Shown one piece after another: positions 19,091 through 54,005 of a DNA stretch of 55,580 bases (its first letter is position 1; each line of letters begins with the position of its first letter). The stretch comes from a virus, in IMG/VR virus record IMGVR_UViG_3300031578_000044, positions 1 through 55,580 of that record; one strand, 5' to 3'. A program made the translations under genes and the position numbers. The notes under the pieces are model-generated. The model had not been told where the DNA came from. It saw only the letters and a program-made list of their open reading frames with translations, and made no database searches.

Positions 19091-19142
19091 CGCGCATCGT
19101 GAAACTCAGCGATCCCCCAGACTCGCGTAGAACAAGAGCCCC

Positions 19143-33229: not shown

Positions 33230-35215
33230 ATGCCAGCGGAAGGATCAGGTAAAGCAATCGCCGGACCAGCGTCAACGACGGTTCGGACAAACGAGGGCGC
33301 ACGCGTCGTGGCTGAGGTGCCGAACCATCGGACTCAGGTTCGCATTGGCAAGCCGTCCCGGGTGGTCGTTGGATCGATGCGCTCGCAAAACAAGTCGAGC
33401 TTCCGAGCAAGGGTGGCCGCTTCTTGCGGCCCCGGCAGCGGTGGCTTTGGCGGGACCGGTGGCGCATACGGCGGTGGCGGTGGCGGTGGTGGTGGCGGCG
33501 GGTTCGGAGGCAACGGGGGTGGTGGCGCAGTTGCCCAAGCATCCGCGGGCAACTTCTATTCGCCCGAGCTGTCGACGGACTTCCTTGAGCTTCCGCAGTC
33601 TCTCAACGAGCAGTGGAACTACTACCGATTCTTCTACAACAACGAGCCGTTCGTCGGGCAGGCCCTTGACCTGCACACTGAGCTGCCGTTGTCGAAGGTC
33701 CGCCTTGCTCGCCCCAAGGCCAAAAGCAAGGCGCTTGCAGACCGGGCACTCCGTTTCTGCGAGAAGTGGGTCGAGGGCATCGGACTGCTGCAACGGCTGC
33801 TGGAGATCGTCCACGACTACTTCCTCATCGGGGAGGTCTACATCTTCTGCGAGGATGCCAACCCCGACATGCCTCGGGAGGTTCGGCAGAAGGTCGTCCG
33901 TCGCGTGGAGCACGACGGCACTCTCACAGAGCAGTGGATCGACCGCGAAGAGGCCGATGACCTCGCTGTTGAATGGCTCAAGCAGAACTACAAGGGGCTC
34001 ACGAACGTCCGCATCCTACCTCCTGAGCAGGTGCACATCCAGACGTTCCCGTTCACGGATGAAGTGATCATCGAGCTTATCCCTGACTCCAAGACGAAGC
34101 ACGTCCTCGAGATGGCTGAGCAGGGGGACCGCAACGCACAACGCGTGGCAGATTCTATGGACCCTGTGGTCATCGAGGCTCTTCGTCGCGGTGACAACAT
34201 CCCGCTGTCCACGGACCCTGATGGGGGCTCGTTCGTCCACTACATGGCGAACAAGAAGTCGCAGTACGAGCCGCGCGGCCACAGCATCCTCCAGCGATGC
34301 CTCCGTACGCTCGTGTACTTCGACAAACTCCGTCAGGCGCAGACGAGTATCGCTTCGCGCCACATGACTCCTGTGCGTCTCGTCTACGCCGAGGACATGA
34401 GCGAGGCCGACACGGAGAACCTGCGCGACCAGATTGACCTCGCGCTCCAAGACCCCGACTACTCGATCGTCACGAACTTCCAGGTCACCTGGGAGGAGAT
34501 GAACTCAAACGGCCGTCTCCTTGAGCTCACGGGAGAGTACGACCTCATCAGCCGTCAGCTCTACGCGGGCCTTGGTGTGACTGAGACGTTGCTCAACGGT
34601 GAGTCGAGCTACTCGGGTGACCGCATCAACCTCGAGGTCATCAACACGCGCTACATGCTGCTTCGTGAAAACGTGCAGCGCCTCGTCGAGCAGTACTTCT
34701 TCAAGCCGATGTGTCGACGCATGGGCTTCGTGGAGGAGGACGAGGACGGCGAGATGGTGGTCATCTACCCGAAGCTGAGCTTCACCAGGCTCGCGCTCCG
34801 GGACAATCAGGACACCTTCGATGCCCTGTTCCAGCTCTACCAGAAGGGCAGCCTGGACATCGAGACGATCCTCGACCTGCTCAACATCGACCCGGTCATG
34901 GTCAAGGAGCGCCTCGAGCGAGACTTCGCCACGTTCAACGATGCGCAGTTCAACGAAGTCCTTCGTTCGGTCTACGGCCGGTCGGGCGACCAACTCGCCG
35001 AGAACTCCAACATCGTCAACAAGATCGCGGAACAGCTCGGGCTCGAGTACAGCAAGCCCGAAGAGCCTGGCATGGGCCGATTCGCGTCCCTCAAGACCGC
35101 ATCAGAGGGGGGTCTCCAAATTGGTGACGACATGGTTTCCAAGATCGCTGATGCAGTGGTCGAACGGCTCATGGGGACGCGGAAGGCGCCCGGAGAGCCC
35201 TCTGACGAGTCTTAG
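33230..35215 (+). CDS. Portal protein
   Basis: This 661-residue protein is the likely portal, the dodecameric channel through which DNA enters and leaves the head. It follows the terminase, has typical portal length, and contains portal-like blocks: QWNYYRFFYNNEPFVGQALD, VHDYFLIGEVYIFCED, ILPPEQVHIQTFPF and DLISRQLYAGLGVTETLL. The start is ATG 33230 behind CAGGAGATGAG. Residues about 60-105 are an unusual Gly-rich spacer with a run of around eleven glycines near residue 88, after RARVAASCG. The C-terminal 60 residues look disordered. Confidence 0.85.
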   Translation: MPAEGSGKAIAGPASTTVRTNEGARVVAEVPNHRTQVRIGKPSRVVVGSMRSQNKSSFRARVAASCGPGSGGFGGTGGAYGGGGGGGGGGGFGGNGGGGAVAQASAGNFYSPELSTDFLELPQSLNEQWNYYRFFYNNEPFVGQALDLHTELPLSKVRLARPKAKSKALADRALRFCEKWVEGIGLLQRLLEIVHDYFLIGEVYIFCEDANPDMPREVRQKVVRRVEHDGTLTEQWIDREEADDLAVEWLKQNYKGLTNVRILPPEQVHIQTFPFTDEVIIELIPDSKTKHVLEMAEQGDRNAQRVADSMDPVVIEALRRGDNIPLSTDPDGGSFVHYMANKKSQYEPRGHSILQRCLRTLVYFDKLRQAQTSIASRHMTPVRLVYAEDMSEADTENLRDQIDLALQDPDYSIVTNFQVTWEEMNSNGRLLELTGEYDLISRQLYAGLGVTETLLNGESSYSGDRINLEVINTRYMLLRENVQRLVEQYFFKPMCRRMGFVEEDEDGEMVVIYPKLSFTRLALRDNQDTFDALFQLYQKGSLDIETILDLLNIDPVMVKERLERDFATFNDAQFNEVLRSVYGRSGDQLAENSNIVNKIAEQLGLEYSKPEEPGMGRFASLKTASEGGLQIGDDMVSKIADAVVERLMGTRKAPGEPSDES

Positions 35216-35256: not shown

Positions 35257-37380
35257 GTGCCCCAGCCTGCGCCACAGAACTTCACGAAAATCGCTAACCG
35301 CGTCGTCCAGAGATGGATGCGGCGAAGTGTGCGTGTGGCCAAAGCGACGGGGACCAAGACCGGCCAAGGCGAATCGGTCGGGCTGTTCATCCCGCTCCCG
35401 AAGGACCTGGCCAAGCAGTTCCCAGACTTGGGGAAGAACGACTCTTCCCCCTCTCATGTCACCTTCCTCTACATCGGGGATTTCAAGGACAAGGAGCAGC
35501 AAGAAAAACTCGTCGAGGTCCTCCGCGAGACGATGCGGAAGTGGTGGCCCGGAGCCAAGGCCACCCTCAATGGCCTTGAGTACTTCGACCACCACGACAA
35601 GGACCGTCGTGTCCCCCACGTCGCCGTCGATTTCGACAAGGACCTGAGCGGGTTCAAACACCGCGTCAAGCAGGAACTCAGCGACGAAGGCATCGAGGTC
35701 GGTGACAAGTTCCCTGAGTTCAAGCCTCACGTCACCCTCTCGTACATGCCCGGCATGGACTCGGAGTGGGAAGGGGAGGTGCCCGAAGGGTCCTGGAACT
35801 TCGATGAGATGGAGGTCTGGGGGCTCCCCGAGCTCCACACCATCAAACTCGGACCCTCGGAGAAGAAGGTCGCCGCATCCTGGCTCCGAGGCAAGGTGGC
35901 CGGCTGGTGGGCCATCTCCCCCGGCAACCCAGGGATCAACCCGCCTCCCGTGGACAAGGGCGGCCTACTGAATGCACTCCCTGGCACAGACCCCGATAGC
36001 GCCCGCTACAACGGAGACGGGCCGGCTGACATCATGGGCAATGCGCTCGCTGCCGTGAACCAGGAGTATATTGACGCGTGGAAGCGTCCTGCGACTCCCG
36101 AGGAGATGCAGGCAGTCTTCGACTTCGTCTACGGAGGATTCGAGCGAGCACCCGAGCACTACCTCCCCAAAGGCGATTCTGTCAGCCTCCGGGTAGCGGC
36201 TCGTTACATGCAGTCTTCCGTCCATCGCAAAAACATCTCCCTCATGAAGTGGCTCTCGCAACTGACCCGTCGATTGGGGGTTGGCCGGGACACGTACGTC
36301 GTGGGTGGTGCTGTGCGGAACTTTTTGATCGATCAGCCGATCAAGGACATCGACATTGTCATCGATACCACGAAGGCTGGCCGTGACTCTGACTGGCTCG
36401 CCAAGCAGATCGCTCGCAACATCCCAGCTCCCACGAACGTCACCACGAATCAATATGGCGTCGCCATCCTGACCGTGAAGGGGACGTGGATGATCGGAGG
36501 GGACGACCTCAACGGCGAAGTCCTTGAGATCGCCAACGCTCGCAAGGAAAGCTATGGGGGCCAGGGCGGCAAGGGCTACAAGCCTCACGCAGTCGCCCCT
36601 GCCACAATCGATGAGGACGTGCTTCGACGCGAGTTCACGTTCAACACGCTGCTATGGCGCATGATGGACTTGGCCCATGGTCCTGACAAAGCCGAGATCA
36701 TCGACCTCACTGGCTGCGGTCGTCGTGACCTCGATCAGCGTGTGGTTCGTTGTCCGCAAGACCCCGACAAGGTGTTTTCGGATGACCCGACTCGGATGCT
36801 CCGGGCCATCAAGTTCACCGGCAAGTACGGCTTCAAGATTCCTCCCGATGTGGTGCGCTCCATCAAGCGCAACGTCTCCAAGCTCAAGCGCATGCCGTGG
36901 GAGGCTGTGGCGTCGATTCTCGTGAACGACGTGATGAGTCAGCCGACTGCTCGCAAGTCTCTCAAGCAGATGAAGGACCTTGGGTTGCTCGACACTGTGT
37001 CGGAGATGATCCAGGAGCAGAAGCCGTTCGCCACGTACATGAGCAACCAGCTCCGTCGCAACCGCAAGGTCCAGTTCTTGCTCGACCTCCTCGAGCTGGG
37101 CGTCCCCGCATCGACGCCGATCTCGTTTCTCGACCGCGCAGGCCAGCAGCGGTTGCGAGACCTGACTGTTTCGATGCCTGAGAAGGAGGCCGTCGCCTTC
37201 GTCGAGAATCTCATCAAGCCTCCTGTGGACAACAAGCGCATCATCGACGTGCTCAAGTTGGAGGGCCCCGATCGCCGTCACATCACCCCGACTGCTCGGC
37301 ATCTGATCCTGCAAAATCCCGAGCTCGCGTCCAAGGGACAGCATCTCACTGACGCTGTCATCAAGGGATTGAGGAAGTGA
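35257..37380 (+). CDS. 2H phosphoesterase / CCA-type nucleotidyltransferase fusion
   Basis: This 707-residue multidomain protein starts at GTG 35257. Residues 1-25 carry an RVA-like motif (KIANRVVQRWMRR). Residues about 35-205 form a 2H phosphoesterase with HVTFLYIGD and HVTLSYMPG; such enzymes cut or ligate 2',5' or cyclic phosphodiesters. A linker domain follows (YNGDGPADIMGNAL), then another motif (LRVAARYMQS). Residues about 340-560 are a class II CCA-adding or poly(A) polymerase fold: YVVGGAVRNFLI, DIDIVID, LRREFTFNTLLW and DDPTRMLRAIKFTG. The fusion suggests RNA or tRNA repair, or removal of nucleotide signals. Its stop overlaps the giant protein's start. Confidence 0.82.
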   Translation: MPQPAPQNFTKIANRVVQRWMRRSVRVAKATGTKTGQGESVGLFIPLPKDLAKQFPDLGKNDSSPSHVTFLYIGDFKDKEQQEKLVEVLRETMRKWWPGAKATLNGLEYFDHHDKDRRVPHVAVDFDKDLSGFKHRVKQELSDEGIEVGDKFPEFKPHVTLSYMPGMDSEWEGEVPEGSWNFDEMEVWGLPELHTIKLGPSEKKVAASWLRGKVAGWWAISPGNPGINPPPVDKGGLLNALPGTDPDSARYNGDGPADIMGNALAAVNQEYIDAWKRPATPEEMQAVFDFVYGGFERAPEHYLPKGDSVSLRVAARYMQSSVHRKNISLMKWLSQLTRRLGVGRDTYVVGGAVRNFLIDQPIKDIDIVIDTTKAGRDSDWLAKQIARNIPAPTNVTTNQYGVAILTVKGTWMIGGDDLNGEVLEIANARKESYGGQGGKGYKPHAVAPATIDEDVLRREFTFNTLLWRMMDLAHGPDKAEIIDLTGCGRRDLDQRVVRCPQDPDKVFSDDPTRMLRAIKFTGKYGFKIPPDVVRSIKRNVSKLKRMPWEAVASILVNDVMSQPTARKSLKQMKDLGLLDTVSEMIQEQKPFATYMSNQLRRNRKVQFLLDLLELGVPASTPISFLDRAGQQRLRDLTVSMPEKEAVAFVENLIKPPVDNKRIIDVLKLEGPDRRHITPTARHLILQNPELASKGQHLTDAVIKGLRK

Positions 37381-40300
37381 ACGCTCTCGTCGCACGCGTG
37401 GCTGCACGCCACATGGCTGCTCAGGATGATTTCTCCGTGGGCGACGAGGTGCTGTTTGGCAAGTACAAGAACAAGCGCGGCAAGATCGTGCGTCTGTTTG
37501 AGGATGAACGCGGCATCCCATCCGTCGAGATTGAGCCCATCCCCAAGGGTCGCAAACAGAACCGTGTGATCGGCCTCTACAAGATCTGGAAGGGCGACCA
37601 TCGCAAGCAGGCCGCGTACTCCAAGGAGTTTTTGGAGTTCGTTCAGGGACGCCGTTTCCAAAACCCCGACACCGGCAACCAAGTCTTGTTCCAGAGCCTT
37701 GAGGTTCCTGAGCAGGTCAAGATTTACCAGCAGTGGGGTGCCGCACAGAACGCCCAAGAAGAGAAGCCTGAGGGCCGAGAGCGCCACGAGCCCGGAAGGC
37801 TCCCGCCTGCGTGGAACCGTGACTCGGACATGGCACGTAAGGTAGAGAAACTCGCGGAAGAGTACGCGACGGAGTACGAGGATTTCTTTGACGGAATGCG
37901 ACAAGTGTCCGTGGAGGACGAGCGCTATCGAGGGGCCGAATTCGCGGGCGAGGCGGTTATGCTCCGCGAGTGGGACCGTCACATCCCTGGGTACGTGCGG
38001 TTGCCCCCCTCTTCCACTTTGGAGGCTATGAGCGACGAAGATCGGCGCATCGCGCTGACTTCATGGGACGCCGGTGTCAAGTTCATGGACGAGGTGCTTG
38101 GGGATGGTGAACGTCTTTCCCTTTTAGAGACCATGAAGCCTTCGGGAGAAGGAGGGTCGCTGGGGTCCCCCGGAGAAGGCTGGATCGACTCGACCCACAG
38201 CCCTGGAGCCCAACGTCTGCAAGGAGCTCTCCGAGAGTTGGGTATCGAGACACACCTGCCGTCTCGAGGCATCGAAGACCATGCAAAATGGCGTGACGAA
38301 GGGGCATCGAACGACCTACTCAAGAGTGCGTTGACGAAGGCGATGGCATGGCAACGCGCCTACTTCGCTGCGATGGGTGTTGAGGATGTGATGCTTTTCC
38401 GGGGAGCCAGTCTCGGTGACGAGGTGGCACGTCAACAGGAGCCCCACCCAACCGACAAACAGCAGAAATATCTTCCTCAAGGGATTCCGGTCACGTTGCA
38501 GAGTCGCCAGGAACTCTCGAGTTTCACGATGGACCCTTACGTTGCCTACAACTTCACTCATCGAAATCGGAGTCCGGGAGAGAGTGACGAGAGCTACGAG
38601 AGTCGGGCGGGGAATTCCCTTCGCGGAGCAGTGGCGTACCGGGTTCCTGTTGACCGGATTGTTTTGTCCCCAGCCGCAATCCCACAGCTCGGGCCTGCAA
38701 CTCCGAAAATCAAGGAGGGCTACCGAGAGGTCGAGTTCATTGTGGGGGGCATTGGGGAACTTGAAGGGCGCACGCTGCCTTCACTGGATGCGGGATACGG
38801 AGCGGGCCGGTACGACCCCGAGAAGATGAAGCTCGCGACCAAGATCACCATCGAGATGTCCGACGAAGACGAGGATGCGTGGCATAAGAGCGTGCGACGC
38901 GAGAACAAGGGCGACCGCCGCAAACAGGCCGCGTACTCCAAGGAGTTTTTGGACTCTGTGCAGGGGCAGCGGTTCCGCAACCCCGACACAGGCAACAAGG
39001 TCGTTTTCAAGTCGCTCTCCGAAGCAGAGCAACGGAAGATCCACGAGCGATGGGAGGCCCGTCATCGTAGCCAAGACGCGTCGGGGCCCACGGTGACAGA
39101 GCGCGGCCGTACCTTCGAGACAGGCAAGCCCGTTGCGTTTGAGTTCCTCCGCAACACTGAGAAGGCTCCCAAGGCCCCTTCGGATTCGGACCCGTACCAG
39201 CAGAAGATCGAGCCCGCAGGGTTCTATGTGACCCACAAGGACACGGACGGGGACCCACTCCCGGGCTACGACACGGGCACCATCAGTTTTCAGAACCCGC
39301 TCGTGCTCGCGGTCAACACCAACCCTGATGGCCCGATCTACGACGAGAACTCTTGGAAGGCGCAACTCGAGCGTCAGTACGGCAAGCGTGGAAAGGCCCT
39401 CACCAAGGCCCTCCAAGCTGACGGATACGACGGCATCGTGACCGTCACCCAAGTTCGTGGAAAGCCCTACACGTCCGAGATTGTTGTGCTCGACTCCGAA
39501 AAGTCTGTGCAGAAGGGCGACGACCGTAAGCGCAGGGCACAAGAGATCGCGGGCATGGGGTACGAGGCGGCGGCGCAGCTCGACAACGATGAACTTGATA
39601 GTGTGGCGTTTGGCGTGAAGCAGGGGGTCCAAGACCTTCGCATCGACCAGCTCAAGGTCAAGTACGACGCGGATCTTGAGCAGGCTGAGCATGCGGTGTC
39701 TCGAGAGCCCGACCGCTGGAAGGAACACCTTGATGAGCCTATTGAGGTCCGTTTCAAGGATGGGGAGTTCCACATCGAGGACGGCCACCATCGGTACGTG
39801 ACGGCCCAGCGCATGGGCCGCGACAGCGTGAAGGTGGACCTGACTATCGATGACAACCCTGTGAAGAAGATCTTTGAAATGGCCGGCAAGAAAATGGCTT
39901 CCTTCCATCGTGAAGCGTGCATCATCGCCGGCCGTCGGTTCGGAGACAGTCTGTGTCTCATCAAGAACCGCGACCGTGCCTACGACGCAGAGCTCGAGAT
40001 CGTGCACCTGGAGAAGGACGGCACCGAGATGGCTGTCATCCTCGATACCGTGACCGGGTACATGGAGGGCGTCAACGAGCACGGGATCGCGGTCGTCAAC
40101 ACAACTCTGATGGTTGTGCGCGACGAAGCCGAGGGCAAGAAGAAGTCCCCCAACGGAGACAAGGGCAAGAAGCCCCTCACGTCCAAGGACGGCCCCAAGA
40201 TCTACCGCGCCCTGGCGTGTGACAACATTGAGGATGCCCTTGAGTCCTTGCGCACGGACGACAACGGTATTCGGGGCCATACCTTCGTGGCCGACGGCAA

Positions 40301-43300
40301 CAAGTTGTTCTCCATTGAGTGCAGCAAGACGCACCCAGCTCGCGTAACGGAACTCGACCCAGACCGCGTCAACACTCGAACGAACCACGGCGTCTCGTAC
40401 CCCGATGCCGGGTACACGCACGGCGAGGACTACGTTAGTTCCGTCGTGCGTCGGTGGGAGGCACAGAAACGTCTGCAGGACATCAAGCGTCCTGAGGCGG
40501 CAGCCGTGGCCCTCATTGAGGCGATCGATGAGGCTGACAGCCCGTTCAATCCGGTCCGCACCACGGACAAGATGCGAACGACGAGCCAGCTTACCATCGA
40601 CACGACCAACCCGAGGTTGCTGCTCTATCTGATCCCTGGCCACGCCAAGGTCGTCAAGCGTCGCAACACGCTGCCGGATGGGCGCAAGCCCAAGATCCCT
40701 GTCCGTGTCTTCAAATACCGCAACAAGATGGAAGACCGGAAGAAGCCGGTCAACAAAGACGCCGCCTTGATCGAACGCGTCGCAGCCCGATCATTGGACA
40801 AGCTCCCCGGTGGGTTGGCCGATGAGAAGAAGCCTGAGGATTTCGATCCCGAACAGATCGCCAAGGGCACTAAGGTCGAGCTTGAGCATACGGATGACCG
40901 TGCAGTGGCCCGTGAAGTGGCGATGGATCATCTCACTGAGGACCCGAAGTACTACGACAAGCTTGAGACCATCGAGAAGCACGGCGCCCGCTACAAGTCC
41001 AAGAAGAAGGTCAAGACCAAGGACGGCGACGAGATGACGGTCTACGAGTACAGCGACCGTCAAATCGCTGATCGGAACCGGGGCAAAGCAGAACGCATCG
41101 AGAAACTGCGCAAGCAGATGAAGAAGCTCCAGACCAAGGTCCGCAAGGACGTGAACTCCAAGGACGAGAAGACTCGTGACCTCGCGCTGGCAGTCGGCTT
41201 GATGGACGAGACCTTTGAGCGTGTTGGCAACGACGGGAGCGCCAAGGAAGGCCACTTCGGCGTCACCACCTGGCGGGTGAAGCACATGACCTTCGGTAAG
41301 GGCGGCGTCACGATCACGTACGTCGGCAAGTCGGGGGTTGACCAGAAGAAGAAGGTCACGAACCCGCGCATCGTTTCGGGTCTCAAGGACGCCTGCAAAG
41401 ACAAGGAGCCCAACGCTTGCGTCCTGAGCGTCACGGCTTCCGAAGTCAACGAATACCTCAAGCCGCTCGACATCACCGCCAAGGACATCCGAGGGTTCCA
41501 CGCGAACCAGAAGATGAAAGAGGAACTCCGAAAGGTCCGCAAGGGGAAGCTCCCCGAAGACCCCAAGGAGAAAGAGAAGAAGCTCAAGGACGAGTTCAAG
41601 AGTGCCCTCGAGGCCACTGCTGACGCGGTAGGCCACGAGGCATCAACCTTGCGCAGCCAATACCTCGTCCCAGGCCTGGAGGATGACTACATGAGAGACG
41701 GGACCGTCAATGAGAGTCACACCAAAAAGGGCTCTACCCTCCACACCGCGGCGTTGGACGGAACCCCAACAGAGCGCCACATCCTTGCCCATGCCCAACT
41801 CGCTCCGGTCCTGGTAACCGCCAACCGACGTTGGTGGATTCAAAAAGCTCCGAACCTGTACCGAATCGCGCGTGAAGACGAGAGGCCGCGCCCCCATATC
41901 GAGGGTGTTCGTTTCCCGCCAGAGGTCTTCACAGTGCTCTGGTACGAGGACGACGACGGCAATCGCTATGAGATGCCCGAGGATGGTCCCGAGCATCCCG
42001 AAGGCGCCAAGTACCAACTCAGCCAGTTCCCGAACTACCTGCACGACAGCATGTTGCAGCTCAACGAGGATGGCACCTCTACGGAGATCATGAGCGGTCA
42101 GCGAGGGTTCCCTGAGGACCTTGTGACCTCCATGGTGCGCAGCGGCGAGTGGGACGTGGGCGACGCCATCATGGTCGGCGGCACGAGCTGCGAGCGCTGC
42201 ATGAACGTCTTGTGCAATCGCTACTTGGGCCCGGAGGAAGGCTACCCCTACGACTCGGAAGAGTATTGGCAGTGCGGGACCCGATGCGCCATGTGTGGGC
42301 ACGTCGACAACACCAACGAGCGGGTGGTCCGACAGCCCCGCTATGCGTCTCCGAGCTACGACAGTTACGTCCAGCGCAAGCGCAGAGAAGGCGGCCCTGT
42401 GCTGTCCCGTGATGAATGGGAAGCCAAGGTCATGGGCGTCGAAGATGACGCTGACGAGACCCCTGAGGCTACCCGTGAAGACTGGGAGGCCCGTCGCAAT
42501 GCTCTCATGGAGGAGCACGGCCTCGACAAGTTCCATTCGTCGTACCGTCCTGACGAGAAGCACATGACGATTGACCTCATCTCCGTTCCCAAGGAGAACA
42601 AGGGTCAAGGCAGTGCTTCAAAGGCCATGAAAGAGACGCTGGCGTGGGCTGACTCCAACGGCGTCACGGTCACGTTGTCGCCAACTTCTGAGTTCGGTGC
42701 CTCCAAGAAGCGCCTTGAGAAGTGGTATCGCAGCATGGGCTTCGTGCCGAACAAGGGGCGCAACAAAGACTTCCGGTTCACAGACGCGATGCTCCGCGAG
42801 CCGCAGGCCAAAACGGCCACGAAATCCGATGCGGAGAACGAAGATGAGGCGGTGGCGAAGATGCTCCGCAAGGAGCCCAAACTCAAGCCTCCGCGCTACG
42901 ACCTTCGTGACAACCGTACTCTCGACGACGACGACCCTGAGGACGATCTTGGCGGTGGCGATGACGGCGACCGCGACATGTCCATGAAGTGGAACAAGGT
43001 GGCGAGCCGCGTGGCTTTCCGTTGGACAGCGATTGGGCCTCGAGTCCCACGACCTGAACGCGTTGCTCGACTGTTCTTGGCGGAGGCGCCCCCAAAGGAC
43101 AAAGCCCAGCCCAAGAGCGGTCCGAGCTTCGAGGAGTGGGTCAAGAACCAGAAATTCAAGCACCCTGAGACCAGCAACGATGTTGGGTTCTCATCGCTCC
43201 CCTCTGACGAGCAGGCCAAGATCCGCGAGAAGTGGAAGGGTCAGCAACAGCCTGAGGATGAGAGCGGCAAGGACAAGGGGAAGGGTGATGAGGATGCGAA

Positions 43301-46300
43301 GCGCACCAAAGAAGACGTGCAGGTCGACCTCAATAACGCGCGCGACGAGATGCGGGACCTAGAGTCCCAGATGGGCGACATCGAGAACGAGATCAAAGAC
43401 CTCGAGGCCAAACTTAAAGGGTTCAAGCAGTACGAAAATCTCTCAGGCGATGCCAAGAAGCAGATAGACGAGCATGTTCGGGACACCCAACGTGCCATTG
43501 GCCGCAAGAAGGATGAACTTGAGGACAAGAAGGAAGAGTTCGACGAAGCGAAGGAGAAGGTCAAAGAGCTCAGGGCTGAGCGAAAGGACCCCGGCTTCGC
43601 TCAAGCCAAGCGCAAGGAGCAGGCTCGCAAGCAGCGAGCCGAACGGGTGAGCCGTGCTGTCCTCAAGGCGCAAGGAGACATGCAGAAACTCCTCGGTAAC
43701 GAGGATACCCAGATCCCAGGGGTCCTTGCCAAGCAGATTGCCAAGGCACTCAACAACCTCGATGAGTCTGAGGTGGAGTCCTTTTCGATTGATTTTCAGG
43801 ACACGCTCCAAAAGTTGATGGGGATGGACTCGAGTTCGGATGAGGCACTTGAGTTGGCGTCTCAAGCCGCCAAGTTTGGTGACCTCCATGGCCTTACTGA
43901 TCCGGGGGAGTTGGCCGTGCGAATGGCTCAGCTCAGCTATGCGCAGAACGTCGTCGCCAATCCGATGAACATCGGGGGAAAGCCGGTCGGCGTCACGGAG
44001 ATGGACAGTGACAAGTACGCCGAACGTGCTCGCGCATCCTACGACCAGTTTCAGAACCTGCCGTCCTCTTTGCGTACGCAGGCTGCGAGGCAAGTGACGG
44101 AGGCGCTCGAGGGTCTGGACCCTGAGACGCACCGCTCACAGGAACTCAATGCCATTTTGACGGGCATGAACCTTGCTCAGGTGGCGGCGACGGGGGACTC
44201 CCTCCCAGGGCGCCCTCAACCGAGCAAAGGGATGGCGTCAGTCATCCAAGCGATGGCTGAAAAGGGCGATGTTGATGCCCTCTTCACTACTTCGGAGGAC
44301 TACTTTGCAGAGCAAGCTCGCGGGAAGATGGAGAAGAGTCTTGATGACATGACGCCACTTGAGGTGGCTCAGTTGGCCACACAAGGGGATTCCAATCACG
44401 GCTACGCGGGGATGGTCAAATTGATTGAGGAGGAGTCTACGCCTGATGTCATGAGAGCCATGATGAAAGACTATCTTATCCAAGACATCCTCAACGATCA
44501 GTGGGGCGACCGAGCCATCCGCGACACGATGCAGGCTGCGGGTCTTGTGGATGCTGATGACCCCGAGGTACGCGCAGGAGTGGTGGGTGAAGCTAACGAG
44601 CGCATGAAGCCTCGGATGGAGCAGATGCTTGAGGCGCGGGAGCGTATTGCTCAAGCCGAGAAAGAAGGCAAAAAACCGGATCCCGAAGACGAGGCCATTG
44701 TTGCAGGCGTCTTGGACAAGGAAAAGGGTACCGGTCTACGTGAGAAGGCGAAGGCTGTTCTCGATACGATCAAGGACAAGTTCAAGAAGGTCGTCATCTC
44801 CCCGGCGAGCGCGGTGCTCCAGCACTTCGTCAACACGGGTGACCGAAAAGTGCTCGAGCAAGAGACGCTGCCACATCCTGATGAGAAGGCCAAAGCACCT
44901 CGTCCCAAGGAAGAGCGTGATGAGGCTCGTGGAGGCGAGAGCACGGCACCGAAGTCGAAGCGCGAGCGCATGATCGAACGTGTGCGTCTCAAGGCTGAGA
45001 GGGTCAAGCTCAAGGCACAGCGCGACAAGGTGAAGGGCGACGAGAAGGGCAAGTACGACGAGAAGATCAAGGACCTCGATGGGAAGATCGAGGGCCTGTC
45101 GAAAGAGCCTGAGAGCGACGAGTCCGAGAGCGAGCAGCCCAAATCCCGCGAGGATTACCGAGCGAAGTTCGATGGCTCGACGTGGGGTGACGACGACGCG
45201 GGCACCGAGTACCACGTCGGGGATCTCATCCATAAGGCTGAGTCCAAGGAGGTCGAAGAGGTTCCGATCGCGGACATCGAGGAGAGCCTCAAGAATATCT
45301 CGGCAGACGAGCCGGTGGGTTCGCCCGAGTTCAAAGAGCGAGCTGACAAGGCCGACCTCAAGTATCCCGTCGTTCTCATGCGACAGGAAGACGGCTCCCT
45401 CGAGATCGTGGATGGCTCCCATCGAGCTTGGAAGGCACGCGAGACGAAGCAGCCGTTGAAGGCTCGGATTCTGGAGCCCGCCGATCTTGAAGATCTTGAG
45501 CAGGTCTCCGACGCTGATCGTGAAAAGTGGGACGAAAACGTCGAGTCTCAGGACGACGAGGAGCACGGCCCCGGCGACGTTTGGGAGACCGAGCAGGGCA
45601 ACTGGCGCGCCAAGAACCCGGACGGCGTCCCCAAATCATTCAAGGACAAGGACAAGGCTGAGATCTACGCCAAGGGCCCAGACGAGAAGGAGTCCGAGGG
45701 GAGCGCTGAGAAGCCCAAGGGAGCGCCCGACGAGGCTGAGGGGAAAGGCCAAGCCGAGAAGGACGAAACGGCTGAGGGAGCGTCTGAGGGAGCGTCTGAG
45801 GGCGCCTCTGAGAAGCCCAAACAGCAGCGCCGGGCCGTCAAGGACGAGCACTTCGACCGCACGCAGGATGCTGTGGACTCCGTAGGAGCACCCATCCAGG
45901 AGAGCTTTACGAAGCTGGCGGACGACCCTGCTTTCCTCAAGATGAGCCCGCAAGAGCGATACACGCGTCTCGGAGAGACGCTCAAGGAGGCCATTCCTGG
46001 TGCTCGAGCGATCCAAGTGCCTGGGGCCGGTTCTAACGCTCCCATCAGCATCACGGTGCCCGAGGAACACCGAGCTCCCGGCGTGACCTCCCGGCAGAAG
46101 ATTCGCTTGCAGCCCAACAGCACGGGTGGCGAGGCGTCGGGTAAGGGCGGCCATCTGGGGCTCGGTGTGAAGGACCTGCTTGAGGCCAAGACGCCCGAGG
46201 AGATCAAGAATGCGACTGCGCGGGTCATGGGCACGATGGTGCATGAGATGACCCACATTTACGGGCATCATGGGACCAACCCCGATGAGTTTGACGATGA

Positions 46301-46754
46301 GGACAAGAAGGTGCGCCACATCCGATACATCTCGGACCCGGGGGAGATGCGGGCCCACGCGAAGGAATTCGCGTGGCGTTACGCTCAGGACCACCCCGAT
46401 GAGGGGGAGGTCGACATCGACAAATTAGAAGAGGCTCACAAGGGAGTGGGTAAGGATTGGAAGATCCGGCAGTACTTCCAACAGCTCGGTGACAAGGAAG
46501 TCCAAGCCAAGTACGACCCTGAGGTCCAGAAGCTCATGCAGGACACGCATGAGGAGATGGGCGACTTGGTGCAGCACTACGTCGACGAGTACCGGAAGCG
46601 CAATGGCCAACAGCGCAAGATGGGGAGCCGCGTGGCCCAAGCGTGGCTCGAGAAGGAACGTCCCGTTCGCATGGCGAATGACTGGTTGGCACACGTCCGT
46701 TCGTTCCATCCAGACGACCCAAAACGTCCGATTGTCGTGCTCGACGCGGCTTGA
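37377..46754 (+). CDS. Giant polyvalent protein (3125 aa): ART, ParB-like, Ntn-hydrolase, TopoIB, GNAT, metalloprotease
   Basis: This very long protein starts at GTG 37377 and fits the 'polyvalent protein' concept: multidomain phage proteins delivered with DNA. In order I see: RVAARHM motif; small SH3-like domain (VGDEVLFGKYKNKRG); NPDTGN module 1; ADP-ribosyltransferase with Arg342, Ser381/382 and E451-x-E453; NPDTGN module 2; second ART-like module (about 575-710); ParB-like domain (DGHHRY, 802); C45-type Ntn-hydrolase with Cys848; RVAARS motif and DUF5661-like segment; topoisomerase IB (Arg1282, Lys1318, Arg1372, His1420, Tyr1429); Cys-rich segment; GNAT domain (about 1705-1815); motif pair near 1876-1900; module 3; coiled coil; helical region; second ParB-like domain (DGSHRAW, 2679); zinc metalloprotease (HEMTH, 2956-2960); final RVAQAWL. 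Probably packaged in the head. Confidence 0.85.
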   Translation: MNALVARVAARHMAAQDDFSVGDEVLFGKYKNKRGKIVRLFEDERGIPSVEIEPIPKGRKQNRVIGLYKIWKGDHRKQAAYSKEFLEFVQGRRFQNPDTGNQVLFQSLEVPEQVKIYQQWGAAQNAQEEKPEGRERHEPGRLPPAWNRDSDMARKVEKLAEEYATEYEDFFDGMRQVSVEDERYRGAEFAGEAVMLREWDRHIPGYVRLPPSSTLEAMSDEDRRIALTSWDAGVKFMDEVLGDGERLSLLETMKPSGEGGSLGSPGEGWIDSTHSPGAQRLQGALRELGIETHLPSRGIEDHAKWRDEGASNDLLKSALTKAMAWQRAYFAAMGVEDVMLFRGASLGDEVARQQEPHPTDKQQKYLPQGIPVTLQSRQELSSFTMDPYVAYNFTHRNRSPGESDESYESRAGNSLRGAVAYRVPVDRIVLSPAAIPQLGPATPKIKEGYREVEFIVGGIGELEGRTLPSLDAGYGAGRYDPEKMKLATKITIEMSDEDEDAWHKSVRRENKGDRRKQAAYSKEFLDSVQGQRFRNPDTGNKVVFKSLSEAEQRKIHERWEARHRSQDASGPTVTERGRTFETGKPVAFEFLRNTEKAPKAPSDSDPYQQKIEPAGFYVTHKDTDGDPLPGYDTGTISFQNPLVLAVNTNPDGPIYDENSWKAQLERQYGKRGKALTKALQADGYDGIVTVTQVRGKPYTSEIVVLDSEKSVQKGDDRKRRAQEIAGMGYEAAAQLDNDELDSVAFGVKQGVQDLRIDQLKVKYDADLEQAEHAVSREPDRWKEHLDEPIEVRFKDGEFHIEDGHHRYVTAQRMGRDSVKVDLTIDDNPVKKIFEMAGKKMASFHREACIIAGRRFGDSLCLIKNRDRAYDAELEIVHLEKDGTEMAVILDTVTGYMEGVNEHGIAVVNTTLMVVRDEAEGKKKSPNGDKGKKPLTSKDGPKIYRALACDNIEDALESLRTDDNGIRGHTFVADGNKLFSIECSKTHPARVTELDPDRVNTRTNHGVSYPDAGYTHGEDYVSSVVRRWEAQKRLQDIKRPEAAAVALIEAIDEADSPFNPVRTTDKMRTTSQLTIDTTNPRLLLYLIPGHAKVVKRRNTLPDGRKPKIPVRVFKYRNKMEDRKKPVNKDAALIERVAARSLDKLPGGLADEKKPEDFDPEQIAKGTKVELEHTDDRAVAREVAMDHLTEDPKYYDKLETIEKHGARYKSKKKVKTKDGDEMTVYEYSDRQIADRNRGKAERIEKLRKQMKKLQTKVRKDVNSKDEKTRDLALAVGLMDETFERVGNDGSAKEGHFGVTTWRVKHMTFGKGGVTITYVGKSGVDQKKKVTNPRIVSGLKDACKDKEPNACVLSVTASEVNEYLKPLDITAKDIRGFHANQKMKEELRKVRKGKLPEDPKEKEKKLKDEFKSALEATADAVGHEASTLRSQYLVPGLEDDYMRDGTVNESHTKKGSTLHTAALDGTPTERHILAHAQLAPVLVTANRRWWIQKAPNLYRIAREDERPRPHIEGVRFPPEVFTVLWYEDDDGNRYEMPEDGPEHPEGAKYQLSQFPNYLHDSMLQLNEDGTSTEIMSGQRGFPEDLVTSMVRSGEWDVGDAIMVGGTSCERCMNVLCNRYLGPEEGYPYDSEEYWQCGTRCAMCGHVDNTNERVVRQPRYASPSYDSYVQRKRREGGPVLSRDEWEAKVMGVEDDADETPEATREDWEARRNALMEEHGLDKFHSSYRPDEKHMTIDLISVPKENKGQGSASKAMKETLAWADSNGVTVTLSPTSEFGASKKRLEKWYRSMGFVPNKGRNKDFRFTDAMLREPQAKTATKSDAENEDEAVAKMLRKEPKLKPPRYDLRDNRTLDDDDPEDDLGGGDDGDRDMSMKWNKVASRVAFRWTAIGPRVPRPERVARLFLAEAPPKDKAQPKSGPSFEEWVKNQKFKHPETSNDVGFSSLPSDEQAKIREKWKGQQQPEDESGKDKGKGDEDAKRTKEDVQVDLNNARDEMRDLESQMGDIENEIKDLEAKLKGFKQYENLSGDAKKQIDEHVRDTQRAIGRKKDELEDKKEEFDEAKEKVKELRAERKDPGFAQAKRKEQARKQRAERVSRAVLKAQGDMQKLLGNEDTQIPGVLAKQIAKALNNLDESEVESFSIDFQDTLQKLMGMDSSSDEALELASQAAKFGDLHGLTDPGELAVRMAQLSYAQNVVANPMNIGGKPVGVTEMDSDKYAERARASYDQFQNLPSSLRTQAARQVTEALEGLDPETHRSQELNAILTGMNLAQVAATGDSLPGRPQPSKGMASVIQAMAEKGDVDALFTTSEDYFAEQARGKMEKSLDDMTPLEVAQLATQGDSNHGYAGMVKLIEEESTPDVMRAMMKDYLIQDILNDQWGDRAIRDTMQAAGLVDADDPEVRAGVVGEANERMKPRMEQMLEARERIAQAEKEGKKPDPEDEAIVAGVLDKEKGTGLREKAKAVLDTIKDKFKKVVISPASAVLQHFVNTGDRKVLEQETLPHPDEKAKAPRPKEERDEARGGESTAPKSKRERMIERVRLKAERVKLKAQRDKVKGDEKGKYDEKIKDLDGKIEGLSKEPESDESESEQPKSREDYRAKFDGSTWGDDDAGTEYHVGDLIHKAESKEVEEVPIADIEESLKNISADEPVGSPEFKERADKADLKYPVVLMRQEDGSLEIVDGSHRAWKARETKQPLKARILEPADLEDLEQVSDADREKWDENVESQDDEEHGPGDVWETEQGNWRAKNPDGVPKSFKDKDKAEIYAKGPDEKESEGSAEKPKGAPDEAEGKGQAEKDETAEGASEGASEGASEKPKQQRRAVKDEHFDRTQDAVDSVGAPIQESFTKLADDPAFLKMSPQERYTRLGETLKEAIPGARAIQVPGAGSNAPISITVPEEHRAPGVTSRQKIRLQPNSTGGEASGKGGHLGLGVKDLLEAKTPEEIKNATARVMGTMVHEMTHIYGHHGTNPDEFDDEDKKVRHIRYISDPGEMRAHAKEFAWRYAQDHPDEGEVDIDKLEEAHKGVGKDWKIRQYFQQLGDKEVQAKYDPEVQKLMQDTHEEMGDLVQHYVDEYRKRNGQQRKMGSRVAQAWLEKERPVRMANDWLAHVRSFHPDDPKRPIVVLDAA
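37597..37737 (+). repeat. NP(D/E)T(G/S)N module, copy 1 of 3
   Basis: This coding repeat inside the giant gene encodes AAYSKEFLEFVQGRRFQNPD and then TGNQVLFQSL...EQVKIYQQW. Copy 2 is at 38911-39054 and copy 3 at 43108-43236. Copies 1 and 2 also share most bases over the first 80 positions, so they arose by a fairly recent duplication. Confidence 0.85.
38911..39054 (+). repeat. NP(D/E)T(G/S)N module, copy 2 of 3
   Basis: It encodes AAYSKEFLDSVQGQRFRNPD and then TGNKVVFKSL...EQRKIHERW. It sits just after the first ADP-ribosyltransferase domain and before the second ART-like module, so it acts as a separator. Confidence 0.85.
43108..43236 (+). repeat. NP(D/E)T(G/S)N module, copy 3 of 3 (diverged)
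   Basis: It encodes SFEEWVKNQKFKHPETSNDV and then GFSSLPSDEQAKIREKW. It lies after the GNAT domain and the motif pair, and before the coiled-coil region. It is clearly related to copies 1 and 2 at protein level but not at base level. Confidence 0.75.
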
Positions 46755-47629: not shown

Positions 47630-47644
47630 TTCATGGGACGCCTC

Positions 47645-48643
47645 ATGCCCAGTCTCTCCCTACAGCAGACCAGAACGTACATCGACAGGCTCGGTGATCT
47701 CGAAAACGAGCTCACCCGATCCTGTCGTGTCGCAGAGGTCATGTCCAAAGGCGCCGACAAAGATCAGGCGGCCGCGGGCGGTCGTCTGAAAGACGCCTGC
47801 GACTCGGCGCGGGAGCACCTCAAGTACGTCGCGGAGGCGAAGACACGCCTGCTCGAGTTCGATGGGTTCCTGCATGCGCAAAGCCAGACCATCCGTGAGT
47901 CGCTCGATCGACCACACATGGTCTCGTTCATGAACGAGGTGGGCTCCAAACTGGGGCGCTCCATGGAAAGTCACGTCGAAGCCATCGTCAGCGGTGCCAT
48001 CGACGCCCTTCGCAGAGTCGCCGGCTCCATCAAGGACATGCGCGATGCGAAGGCTGGTACCGAGGGCGACGCGTCCGCCAAGGGGAGTGCCAAAGCACTC
48101 GACAAGATCTGTGACGCTGCTGAGAAGGCCATTCGAGAAGGGGTCAAGGAGCGCAAAGCTGCTCCGGCACCTGCTCCTGAGGTCGAAGTTGAAGTCGAAG
48201 TCGAACTCGACGAGGAGACCGAAAAAATGGCAGCACATGGTTACAACCTGACAGCAGGCCTTCCTCCCGAGTTCTTGGAGAATATCCAGAAGAAAAAGGA
48301 TGAAGCCAAGGGCAAGAAGGACGACGACAAAGAGGACGAGAAAGACGCGGGCAAGAAAGCCTACGTCCAAGTCCAATACCTGACGGCGGGCCTTCCTCCT
48401 GAGTTCCTGGAGAACATCCAGAAGAAAAAGGACGAAGCCAAGGGCAAGAAGGACGACGACAAAGAGGACGAGAAAGACGCGGGCAAGAAAGCCCACGGCT
48501 ACACCCTCACCGCCGACTCCTTGACCCCCGGCAATGAATCCAAAGGCCCCAAGGACGAGGGCGAAGAAGACGAGGGTTGGGTTCCGGGTCATCGCACCGA
48601 TGGCAAGGACAAGAAGGCCCACGGCTACACGCTTACTGCGTAG
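47645..48643 (+). CDS. Repeat-containing virion protein, possible scaffold or core protein (332 aa)
   Basis: I start at ATG 47645, which has GGGA 7 bases upstream. ATG 47633 (4 residues longer) is also possible. The N-terminal 170 residues are helical. After a Pro/Val/Glu linker (APAPEVEVEVEVEL) come two nearly identical 38-residue repeats, each starting LTAGLPPEFLENIQKKK and followed by a Lys/Asp-rich stretch. The peptides AHGYNLTA, QYLTA, AHGYTLTA and a terminal AHGYTLTA recur around them. Charged repeats suit a scaffold or internal head protein. The recurring peptides might be protease cleavage sites. Confidence 0.6.
   Translation: MPSLSLQQTRTYIDRLGDLENELTRSCRVAEVMSKGADKDQAAAGGRLKDACDSAREHLKYVAEAKTRLLEFDGFLHAQSQTIRESLDRPHMVSFMNEVGSKLGRSMESHVEAIVSGAIDALRRVAGSIKDMRDAKAGTEGDASAKGSAKALDKICDAAEKAIREGVKERKAAPAPAPEVEVEVEVELDEETEKMAAHGYNLTAGLPPEFLENIQKKKDEAKGKKDDDKEDEKDAGKKAYVQVQYLTAGLPPEFLENIQKKKDEAKGKKDDDKEDEKDAGKKAHGYTLTADSLTPGNESKGPKDEGEEDEGWVPGHRTDGKDKKAHGYTLTA
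48248..48493 (+). repeat. Direct repeat of 114 bases, two copies
   Basis: Copy 1 is 48248-48361 and copy 2 is 48380-48493, offset by 132 bases and nearly identical, with only a few third-position changes. Both are in frame and encode the LTAGLPPEFL...GKKA unit. The high base identity points to recent duplication or ongoing copy-number change. Confidence 0.85.
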
Positions 48644-48653
48644 GAGGATCTTG

Positions 48654-49277
48654 ATGGAGCGACGAGCAGACGAAGGTAACTGGCAAGCCCGTGGACAAGA
48701 GTTCCGCGTGGGTCAGACCGTGCAGCTCGTCAACGGGGGCGAGACGGATGTGGGGCGCGTCGTTGCGGTCTGGCCGGGCATCGGCATGTGTGACGTGCAG
48801 TTCCCACACACGAGCTACCGCTTCCCCGTCGAAGACCTCCAGATCATCAATCAAGGGGACGACCCCTTCATCGCTCCCATGCACGAGGACGTTCCGGGTG
48901 GCCCCGGCTCCGAAGGCGACGTGTCCGAAGGCGCTCCTGCCACCAACGTCATCGAGGGCGAAGTGCCCCGCATCGAACTCGTCCACGAGGTCGGCAAGAC
49001 CGCCGAGGAAATGACGAGCCGCGTTGCTCAAGCTTTTGTGAAGAAGTCGCTCTACTGGCACGCCACCGATCGCAAATATCGGGTGAGCCGTGAAGAGCAC
49101 GCGAACGGTCACTACAAGTGCCCGGCCAAGTCCTGCACAGGCCACCTGCGTCGCGCGAACTACAAGATGGAGGACGGCCGCATGGTCAAACTCCACGCCT
49201 GCCCCGAGTGCCTGTTCATGATCCGAGCTTCGGACATCATGGACGACCATTGCGCTTCGTCGAAGGGAGCTGCCTGA
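48654..49277 (+). CDS. Virion protein with RVA motif and zinc ribbon (207 aa)
   Basis: The ATG at 48654 is set by AGGAGG 7 bases upstream. Residues 15-65 look like a small SH3/KOW-like barrel (EFRVGQTVQLVNGG, GRVVAVWPGIGMCDVQF). Residues about 120-130 read TSRVAQAFVKKS, the motif shared with the giant protein. The C-terminal part is a zinc ribbon with YKCPAKSCTG and HACPECLFMI. It sits directly before the capsid protease, so it is probably part of head assembly or an internal head protein. Confidence 0.62.
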   Translation: MERRADEGNWQARGQEFRVGQTVQLVNGGETDVGRVVAVWPGIGMCDVQFPHTSYRFPVEDLQIINQGDDPFIAPMHEDVPGGPGSEGDVSEGAPATNVIEGEVPRIELVHEVGKTAEEMTSRVAQAFVKKSLYWHATDRKYRVSREEHANGHYKCPAKSCTGHLRRANYKMEDGRMVKLHACPECLFMIRASDIMDDHCASSKGAA

Positions 49278-49278: not shown

Positions 49279-50787
49279 ATGGCGTTCTCTAAGACCGCTC
49301 GAGCAGACGTGACGCAGCCTTCGTGGTCGATGGACCATTGGGGCAACTTCGTGCAGCAAGCGCGTGGGCGCGTTCGTACTGCTTCAGGTTCCCCGAACCT
49401 GGTGTCCCAGGCATCGGAGATCCTCCAAGAGAACTTCTCTCCCGAGAAGTACCTCCTGACGCACGCGACCATCGTGGCGTCGGTGGATACCGATGACGTG
49501 CAGAACGTCAAGCTCGGGAACATCAACGAGCTCGGTCGCAAGGTGAATCGCCGGTGGGCGAACTACCGCATCAAGCCGGGCTGCGACATCTACATCAACA
49601 ACAACCACGACGCGTGGGACCGACCGGTGCTCCTCAAGAGCTACCGAACCTTCGTCGGCGCCCACAACTTCGTGGAGCACGTTCAGATCGAGGACCAGTC
49701 GAAGGGCCGCATCATCGATGCTGCTGCCCGCGACATCGGCGACTCGGTCTACGTGGACATCCTCATCGCGACCAACCGCCGTCACTCGAGCCTGATTCGG
49801 GACATCGAAGCTGGCCGCATGAACACGATGAGCATGGGCTGCTCCGTCACGGAAACGATCTGCACGAAGTGCGGGAACGTGGCCGCCGACGAGACGGAGA
49901 TGTGCGAGCACGTCAAGTACGCCAAGGGGCAGTACGAGTACGACTCGTTGGGACGCAAGTACCGAGTGGCCGAACTCTGCGGCCATAGTGACATCGACCC
50001 CACAGGCGGCGTGACGTTCATCGAAGCGTCATGGGTCGCGGTCCCTGCTTTCCAGGGTGCCGTGATGCGCAACATCCTTGCGCCAGGCTCCATCAACTTG
50101 GATACGCGGAGTCAGATGCAGAAGGTGCTCTCAGAGCCCCCTTCGCAGTGGACTGCCGACGATGATCAAATGGCCAAGGCCGCTCGCACACTCGAAGTGA
50201 CGTTCGATGAGAACTCCCTCGATGCTGTGCAGCTCGCCGAGCGCCGTCGCCTCCAGCGTATTGCTGAGATGCCCGCCATGCCTGAGATGCCCCCAATGGG
50301 TGCTCCGGGCGAAGGTGGCGCACCAGGCGGTGAAGAAGCTGACCCGATGAAGGATCTCGAGGACGAGATCGAGAAGTACGTCCTCGACAAGATCAAGAAG
50401 AAGATTCGGGACAAGATGGTTTCGGAGGAGGACGAGGACCAGGTTTCCGAAGAGGAACTTGCCACGTCGTCCAACGAGAACATCAACCACCAAGCAGCCA
50501 AAGTCGCTGCACTGACGAACGGTACGAAGACCCTTCTTCGCATCGCTCGCTCTGACGTGGAGTTGCTCGACGGGATGGCCCGTCTCCAGCAAAGCCACGG
50601 CATCAAAGTTTCGAGAGAACTGTACAGGACCGCCCTCCGGGTCGGGTCTACCGACGGGCACCCCTCTCTCGAAAAGTACCTCGTGCAATGTGCCGAGGTG
50701 CTTGGTCACAACCCAAACACGGGAGAATCCAAGACCTTGGTGCGTCTTGGGCGAATCCTTTCAATGCGAAAGAAGACCCGGTTCTAG
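49279..50787 (+). CDS. Capsid maturation (prohead) protease
   Basis: This 502-residue protein looks like the phage head maturation protease. The N-terminal domain has a candidate catalytic His in NFVEHVQIEDQSKG (about residue 134) and a candidate Ser in MNTMSMGCSV (about residue 185), the His-Ser layout of prohead serine proteases. A Cys/His cluster follows (CTKCGN, MCEHVKY, LCGHSD), then FIEASWVAVPAFQGAVMRN. The second half is acidic and helical and may act as a scaffold domain. The gene lies two genes before a decoration candidate and the capsid gene, as expected. Exact catalytic residues are inferred, not proven. Confidence 0.72.
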   Translation: MAFSKTARADVTQPSWSMDHWGNFVQQARGRVRTASGSPNLVSQASEILQENFSPEKYLLTHATIVASVDTDDVQNVKLGNINELGRKVNRRWANYRIKPGCDIYINNNHDAWDRPVLLKSYRTFVGAHNFVEHVQIEDQSKGRIIDAAARDIGDSVYVDILIATNRRHSSLIRDIEAGRMNTMSMGCSVTETICTKCGNVAADETEMCEHVKYAKGQYEYDSLGRKYRVAELCGHSDIDPTGGVTFIEASWVAVPAFQGAVMRNILAPGSINLDTRSQMQKVLSEPPSQWTADDDQMAKAARTLEVTFDENSLDAVQLAERRRLQRIAEMPAMPEMPPMGAPGEGGAPGGEEADPMKDLEDEIEKYVLDKIKKKIRDKMVSEEDEDQVSEEELATSSNENINHQAAKVAALTNGTKTLLRIARSDVELLDGMARLQQSHGIKVSRELYRTALRVGSTDGHPSLEKYLVQCAEVLGHNPNTGESKTLVRLGRILSMRKKTRF

Positions 50788-53129: not shown

Positions 53130-54005
53130 ATGACCGGTGTATCCAACGCTGTGAAGCAAAAACTCATCTCCGAGTACATCAAGACCCCCGCGGGTCGTGC
53201 CAAGCTCGCTGCCTCTCTGACGCAGCCGCTCCGTACTCGGCGAGACTACACCTCGGTAGGCCGCAAGACCTTTTTGGTCGAGCAGCTCCCCGATGGTGCC
53301 CTGCCCATCTACGACAAAGACCCGGACGTGACAGCGTACGTGGTCGGCGAGGAAGGCGAGAACATCATCGCCGTCACCAAGCCACGTCGTGTGATTTTTC
53401 CGTTGTTCGAGATCGCCTCGAACCCGGAGATTCCACTCACCCAAATCAAGGAGCGTCGTTTCGATCTGATCGAGCGTGCTCAGGATCTTGCGCGTGCGCA
53501 GATCCAGGCTGCCGAAGACGAGCGCGTCTTCGCTGTCCTTGATGCCATCGCCACCAACGGGTTCGACTCGATCCCCGGTGGTACCAACCCCGACATTCCA
53601 GTGGTCGCTCCGATCTCTGGTGCGGTGCTGGCCGACGCCTTCGCTCTCATCGAGCGCCACGACCTCCGGGTCGCGCGCGTGTACATGAACGCGCGGGACT
53701 ACGCCGACATCAGGAAGTTTGGCCGCGATATTCTCGACATCGAGAGTCAGGCCACGCTGCTCAAGACCGGCCTCCAGGCTACCCTTTGGGGTGCCCAGGT
53801 CATCACGAGTCGCATCGTTCCTGCTGGCACCGTCTATGTATGTTGCGAACCTGAAATGTTCGGTAGGATTCCGGTCCGCACCGAGCTGACCGTCCTCTCT
53901 GCGGACGATCCCAAGGCTCGGACCATTGGCTTCAGTGTGTTCGAAAACTTGGGTATTGGTGCGTATAACCCGCGTGGGTTGACTCGCCTCACCGTGACCC
54001 GCTAG
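53130..54005 (+). CDS. Major capsid protein (HK97-fold type)
   Basis: This 291-residue protein is the likely major capsid protein. It has a strong ribosome-binding sequence (AGGAAAGGAGAGAG) before ATG 53130. The N-terminal arm is helical (AVKQKLISEYIKTPAGRAKL). The core has a long spine-helix candidate (FDLIERAQDLARAQIQAAED), a loop with GTNPDIPVV, and a beta-rich C-terminal part (LWGAQVITSRIVPAGTVYVC, GFSVFENLGIGAYNPRGLTR). Size and layout match HK97-fold capsid proteins of large myoviruses. It follows protease, scaffold and decoration genes and is followed by a strong terminator. Confidence 0.8.
   Translation: MTGVSNAVKQKLISEYIKTPAGRAKLAASLTQPLRTRRDYTSVGRKTFLVEQLPDGALPIYDKDPDVTAYVVGEEGENIIAVTKPRRVIFPLFEIASNPEIPLTQIKERRFDLIERAQDLARAQIQAAEDERVFAVLDAIATNGFDSIPGGTNPDIPVVAPISGAVLADAFALIERHDLRVARVYMNARDYADIRKFGRDILDIESQATLLKTGLQATLWGAQVITSRIVPAGTVYVCCEPEMFGRIPVRTELTVLSADDPKARTIGFSVFENLGIGAYNPRGLTRLTVTR

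Follow-up and report, generated by a model that had tools for sequence, protein, structure and literature searches.

Polyvalent proteins are described in the main text of Iyer et al. 2017 (PMC5512222) as single chains with many effector domains, encoded beside virion genes and predicted to be packaged and injected; a topoisomerase appears in that text only in the title of a reference. The definition followed here is 2-15 functionally unrelated domains per chain. In phage T4, the prohead receives its internal proteins and the ADP-ribosyltransferase (ART) Alt by means of a capsid-targeting sequence (CTS), and both are delivered to the host along with the DNA (PMC7411985, PMC3012670). A near-portal position and effector fusions are features of the MuF/SPP1 gp7 minor head proteins as well. 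The encapsulation peptides of bacterial microcompartments, short amphipathic helices located N-terminally, C-terminally or between domains, load protein-shelled organelles; poxviruses package a type IB topoisomerase (TopoIB) in the virion. Here we compare these systems with a locus of an uncultivated giant phage that encodes a 3125-aa polyvalent protein (the giant).

Results

The window, i.e. the whole 55,580-nucleotide stretch analysed (IMG/VR record IMGVR_UViG_3300031578_000044), is the first half of a 102,757-base IMG/VR contig (100% identity, coordinates unchanged), and its features mapped below, those at 47633-48643 and 54109-55083 aside, are on the plus strand. The gene order is terminase large subunit (TerL; 30546-32450, PHROG terminase large subunit), portal (33230-35215, PHROG portal, 1e-30), a 707-aa protein (35257-37380), the giant (37377-46754), smaller head genes, head maturation protease (49279-50787, PHROG head maturation protease, 1e-11), an acidic scaffold-like protein and the major capsid protein (MCP; 53130-54005), the latter assigned by its position in the head cluster and by homologues of near-identical length in four other genomes. 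TerL, portal, protease and MCP confirm the virion-gene neighbourhood of the giant. The portal is distantly related to gp14 of Bacillus phage G (29%, tblastn to the phage G portal). As the initial annotation stated, the giant is a single uninterrupted frame; it begins with GTG, and this start shares 4 bases with the stop of the gene before it. The annotation also placed it beside the portal; it is near the portal, but does not adjoin it directly, since the 707-aa gene is situated between the two. The 707-aa protein combines a 2H (2'-5' RNA ligase-like) phosphodiesterase with a CCA/poly(A) nucleotidyltransferase (NCBIfam/PHROG) and bears two copies, SEKKVAASWLRGK and VSLRVAARYMQSS, of the short motif (tag) described below. 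Another tagged product of the head cluster (48534-49277) consists of a KOW-like part, the tag SRVAQAFVKK and a zinc-ribbon-like part; it has tagged orthologues in G003, G011 and G013, and in L073 its KOW-like part is, by sequence reading, fused to that record's own giant downstream of the portal. Two further features of the head region were recorded: a protein with repeats ending in KKAHGYTLTA, own C-terminus included (47633-48643), possibly another short head-associated signal, and a LAGLIDADG-like ORF directly after the capsid gene (54109-55083). In the post-capsid place of LR745208 (L003, 31488-35177), we read a 1230-aa protein that combines similar repeats with a methylase-like part and with zinc ribbons.

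From its N-terminus, the giant comprises a KOW-like module, a repeat, ART1, a repeat, the FETG/RNTE domain, a ParB-like domain, a C45 domain, DUF5661 and TopoIB, followed by a cysteine-cluster domain, GNAT, the KPPR element, a repeat, a coiled coil, a helical domain, a second ParB-like domain and a zincin. The repeated modules reported by the initial annotation are real and correspond to residues 77-128 (37605-37760), 516-567 (38922-39077) and 1916-1968 (43122-43280). The TopoIB assignment (41025-41732), judged by sequence, is certain (Pfam 3.9e-24; PDB profile matches). All five catalytic residues (R1282, K1318, R1372, H1420, and Y1429) are present and invariant across 27 slot homologues, which argues that the activity of the enzyme is being selected for. 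The poxvirus TopoIB is of this class and has these catalytic residues (the vaccinia topoisomerase was found by profile), while the copy in the giant is embedded in a multi-enzyme phage protein. The C45/AAT-type Ntn-hydrolase (39912-40742) is well supported by a Pfam AAT match of 6e-8, above the gathering score on the slice, although the NCBIfam C45 model gives 46 bits vs a cut-off of 85; the predicted nucleophile, Cys848, is kept in every homologue aligned. DUF5661 (40821-40982; Pfam 8.7e-10, above gathering) follows.

GNAT, the zincin and the first ART are likely. The GNAT acetyltransferase (42474-42866) has a KGQGSA loop and a PHROG match of 3e-22, but stays below the Pfam gathering threshold (Acetyltransf_CG, 19.4 bits vs 30). 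A homologue is found within a tagged protein of G015 (E 4e-24), and the region matches the DarB-like proteins of phages Skulduggery and Parlo (36-42%), the rest of which is unlike the giant; with the P1 DarB/DdrB-type proteins only the GNAT region is common. The metalloprotease initially recognised by HEMTH (45924-46556) possesses HEMTH (residues 2956-2960) and DPGE (residues 2987-2990), i.e. an HExxH motif with the downstream Glu, while Pfam remains sub-threshold; a similar stand-alone tagged protein is encoded in LR745208. ART1 (37788-38891) shows the proposed R-S-ExE signature (R342, S381, E451-x-E453), and two paralogues, which are located on the same contig beyond the window in two further giants (80946-86561 and 86561-90304), keep R, S-F and E-x-E at about 30% identity; ART1 itself has no Pfam HMM match and no PDB sequence match. 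These two further giants (1872 and 1248 aa; G001, L124) carry a second short repeated element of their own, VALSIFDAPDS, N-terminally and internally.

The FETG/RNTE domain (39087-39515), previously taken for a second ART, belongs to a real family (of 4). Alignment by hhalign to ART-PolyVal gave a probability of 3% (against a small, shallow profile) and the fold model is poor, hence an ART identity of this domain is unsupported. The two ParB-like domains are motif-level assignments: the first (39516-39911; DGHHRY) is recognised by DGHHR and is absent from the closest relative, L008, while the second (45174-45506; DGSHR) matches PHROG 17560 (4.7e-15), a family of unknown function. Two stretches were modelled with AlphaFold: the ART1-ART2-ParB1 stretch modelled poorly from 6 rows (pLDDT 57) and gave no match in the structure search, and the conserved all-helical domain (43791-44870) modelled fairly (AF2 pLDDT 76) and had no fold match in PDB; the ART and ParB assignments are without HMM or fold support. 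Two further modules are a KOW/SH3-like one (37425-37592; Pfam KOW 0.0045, below gathering), which is kept in slot proteins, and a possibly zinc-binding cysteine cluster (41817-42458; CERCMNVLC...CGTRCAMCG), which has no Pfam match and is kept in the closest relatives only. No MuF domain was found in Pfam, PHROG and NCBIfam scans, by which the giant differs from the MuF/SPP1 gp7 proteins. From the eight enzyme-like domains claimed originally, TopoIB and C45 are therefore firm, GNAT, zincin and ART1 likely, the two ParB-like domains motif-level, and the second ART is not retained. The reading as a polyvalent protein was borne out by the TopoIB, C45, DUF5661 and GNAT HMM matches together with the motif-level ART, zincin and ParB domains. 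The giant resembles the proteins of Iyer et al. in its ART, GNAT, zincin and ParB-like domains, in the 2H domain nearby and in its place beside virion genes; it differs from them in the recurrent TopoIB of its slot, the C45 and DUF5661 units, the single-copy KPPR element and a short tag common to modules and stand-alone proteins.

A portal profile retrieved 80 viral loci; the census covered those with 8 kb or more of sequence after the portal, 46 once redundancy was removed. Genes in unannotated genomes were called mechanically, and most records are fragments. The post-portal stretch is a variable effector slot with a recurrent TopoIB core. KPPR is present in 33 of the 46 loci and TopoIB in 19, followed by the helical domain (12 loci), 2H (10), CCA polymerase (9) and a HAD_SAK-like phosphatase (8); other slot giants include RNA ligase, inorganic pyrophosphatase, AstE/M99-type metallopeptidase, phosphoribosyltransferase and ART-PolyVal. 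Since it occupies 19/46 slots, TopoIB is a recurrent core and not a one-off. The initial annotation regarded the combination with TopoIB as new; this holds for the exact domain order, which was not found in other genomes, but not for TopoIB in the slot. The whole-protein scan of viral contigs matched the own contig only, near and distant DNA searches of phage records yielded no match, and the portal search in bacterial genome contigs found four MAG contigs, too few to name a host. The KPPR element of the giant (42876-43022; PKLKPPRYDLRDNR...DRDMSMKWNKVA) follows the consensus KPxxKPPRxDLRxxR...GDxDLSxNYKRVA and occurs in exactly one copy in 19 of 20 large (huge-phage) records. It is absent within about 12 kb in 13/46 loci, some relatives having no slot giant, and in G009 and G010 it is far from the portal. 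A conserved domain LLPIMNPLFNLREICKQ...CPDCIRKHFLTIEA lies directly before KPPR in 22/46 loci (L051, L067, L072, L073, and others). LAGLIDADG inteins are inserted in the CCA/poly(A) polymerase domains of slot proteins in L008 (11966-16339), L082 (11585-20008) and G013 (15402-20000); the 536-kb record G013 also contains a second, diverged terminase-/capsid-like gene set (312937-323631), possibly a satellite or a duplicated head module.

Compared to L008 and L193 (portal 91% identical), the window has ART1 with one repeat copy, ParB1 and DUF5661 as extra modules; compared to L010 (portal 89%), the FETG domain and GNAT are extra as well. In L008 and L010, DUF5661 is found instead at the C-terminal end of another gene's product, encoded upstream of the portal. 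ART1 is flanked by repeat copies 1 and 2, whose DNA is highly similar over about 100 bases. Judged from such comparisons of gene content, modules move between genes and phages.

The motif [SA]xRVASRYLxK (13 residues, amphipathic), referred to as RVASRYL, was first seen as a recurring RVAxRYL in linkers. An unbiased pattern count was at first dominated by portal homologues; redone with a multi-copy criterion, the count of gapped patterns recovered RVASRYL. A PSSM of 13 columns (consensus S-A-x-R-V-A-S-R-Y-L-x-K), learned from this clade, gave 309 matches in 3627 proteins vs about 30 in shuffled proteins; 58 were N-terminal, 62 C-terminal and 189 internal, i.e. 120 at protein ends vs 48 expected. 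PSSMs held out for six genomes matched 27, 19, 17, 9, 7 and 6 times, vs 1.0, 1.7, 0.7, 0.4, 0.6 and 0.6 in the respective shuffled sets, and column-permuted models obtained at most 2-6 matches; at 4092 protein ends, a held-out PSSM had 43 matches vs about 1. Enrichment is weakest in G011, where a simple regular expression is not enriched. In the giant, tags are found at the N-terminus (RVAARH, residues 7-12, 37395-37412; PSSM 22.9), directly before DUF5661 (RVAARS, residues 1134-1139, 40776-40793; 18.0), internally at 43008-43088 (RVAFRW and RVARLF; 14.8 and 13.4) and 41 residues from the C-terminal end (RVAQAWL, 46629-46649; 18.7). Among slot giants, 60 of 65 tags fall between the recognised domains or beyond them, these domains making up 34% of the residues, and several of the 5 in-domain tags appear to be false positives (QVANRH in TopoIB). 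A copy usually precedes the TopoIB domain within about 20 residues. The RVASRYL string has no occurrence in the open-access literature searched; most of the novelty lies in this address-like motif and in the single-copy KPPR element, both of which the initial annotation had overlooked.

The mobility of the modules, together with the flanking repeats being direct repeats at the DNA level, would suit a recombination scar or an inert linker that module shuffling has spread and that plays no part in targeting. We consider this very unlikely, as the motif is conserved at the peptide level with amphipathic periodicity (helical hydrophobic moment 0.49 vs 0.29 random and 0.36 shuffled) and is found at both ends of unrelated proteins, also outside giants. 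The location of tags between domains, a head maturation protease encoded nearby and the processing of internal proteins by phage prohead proteases (PMC7411985) are what would be expected if the motif were mainly a cleavage site of the head protease and the giant a polyprotein cut during head maturation. Many copies are, however, in the last few residues of proteins (IASRVASRYMK-stop, SARRVADRYLAR-stop), where a cut would be useless, the MCP has no copy, and the known sites of prohead proteases have a terminal glutamate (AXE in SPN3US, PMC7411985; S/A/G-X-E in phiKZ), which the motif lacks. Because copies often end proteins and the known sites end in glutamate, such a role is less likely, and as the main function of the motif we hold it to be unlikely.

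Related giant phages encode dozens of further, separate proteins that bear RVASRYL. The motif is between domains in the giants, and at the extreme N- or C-terminus of unrelated proteins that these phages encode separately: ART-PolyVal (two genomes), a HAD_SAK RNA-repair phosphatase, two C39 peptidases, GNATs (one of them homologous to that of the giant), DnaJ, SWIM zinc fingers, a ferritin-like protein, 2H (as a C-terminal tag), HExxH proteins and a UvrD helicase. In the stand-alone carriers with a Pfam match the tag is outside the matched domain. The tagged UvrD helicase contains an intein. No motif match at score 11 was obtained in orthologues of TerL, MCP, protease, DNA polymerase and recombination ATPase; in one portal the motif is matched once, weakly and internally (11.6). 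Strong matches are absent from seven stretches of comparator phages (about 53,000 aa), the stretches of phage G and Tunturi_5 that were read contain no tag scoring at least 13, and phage G has no KPPR element. A search for virion proteomes found none for this clade, and none in the open-access literature for phage G and Tunturi_5.

Independent evidence that one type of module, at the least, accompanies signals of this kind comes from DUF5661 in other phages. In Caulobacter phage Cr30 it starts behind a T4-CTS-like MKDFKSFL, in Flavobacterium phage immuto it is behind an N-terminal motif common to at least three proteins, and in Virus Rctr197k behind RAASRFL inside a 2039-aa protein. The unrelated gp080, gp094 and gp095 of immuto (L203) share an N-terminal MKKSQLRxIIKEEL-like sequence, possibly the loading signal of that phage.

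Tagged proteins might alternatively be made in the infected cell and dock by the motif to another hub (replication, RNA polymerase or an assembly factory), with nothing being packaged. Tagged genes are indeed scattered over the genome, and UvrD, DnaJ and the ferritin-like protein suit intracellular work; the UvrD with intein and the ferritin-like protein are tagged, yet are not classic injected effectors. Against such docking, the motif is absent from DNA polymerase and from the recombination ATPase, tags are densest in proteins of the head cluster and in classic polyvalent domains, and domain relatives bear T4-CTS-like signals in other phages, which makes it improbable in our judgement.

Discussion

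We propose that the giant is a polyvalent protein, loaded into the prohead under the direction of its tags and delivered with the DNA, and that its slot holds exchangeable modules around a core, a reading that we favour and find fairly probable. Packaging and entry with the DNA, as suggested by the initial annotation, are strengthened by the position among head genes, the motif shared with effector-like stand-alone proteins and the domains, largely of the Iyer type, and remain a prediction from sequence. Loading would proceed via the short amphipathic helix [SA]xRVASRYLxK, by analogy a virion-loading tag like the T4 CTS. Similar to the CTS of IPI-III and Alt, RVASRYL is a short sequence common to unrelated proteins including an ART; in contrast to the CTS, which is N-terminal only, it is N-terminal, C-terminal or between domains, has another sequence and no glutamate cleavage site, and its loading role is deduced. 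In placement and amphipathicity it is like the microcompartment encapsulation peptides, the likeness being one of description and not of sequence. The wider proposal, that RVASRYL is a general position-independent virion-loading peptide in a huge-phage clade that is widespread, that giants are fused tagged cargos in the portal slot and that the injected proteome of uncultivated huge phages can be read from sequence, appears to us as probable as its opposite.

The giant would then be a chain in which several tagged cargo units have been fused, and the slot core (TopoIB, the single-copy KPPR element and often the helical domain) would be surrounded by exchangeable effector modules. On entry, TopoIB may relax the incoming genome for early transcription, ART and GNAT may modify host proteins, and the neighbouring 2H and CCA-nucleotidyltransferase may repair tRNA cut by host defences. 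The nucleophile Cys of Ntn-hydrolases must become N-terminal to act. A cut of the chain at 847/848, exposing Cys848, is therefore probable; the cleavage and the targets of the giant are both predictions.

Injected proteins of huge phages are known only for a few cultured phages. If the proposal is true, RVASRYL could serve as a tag with which cargo proteins are loaded into very large phage heads, and a loading tag that is readable from sequence would provide a list of injected proteins for any metagenome-assembled relative. The tag would also explain the evolution of polyvalent giants by the fusion and swapping of tagged units. If delivered, a TopoIB accompanying a genome of several hundred kilobases would parallel the poxviruses, and tRNA-repair enzymes delivered together with it would suggest that a first obstacle met by these phages is anti-tRNA-cleavage defence.
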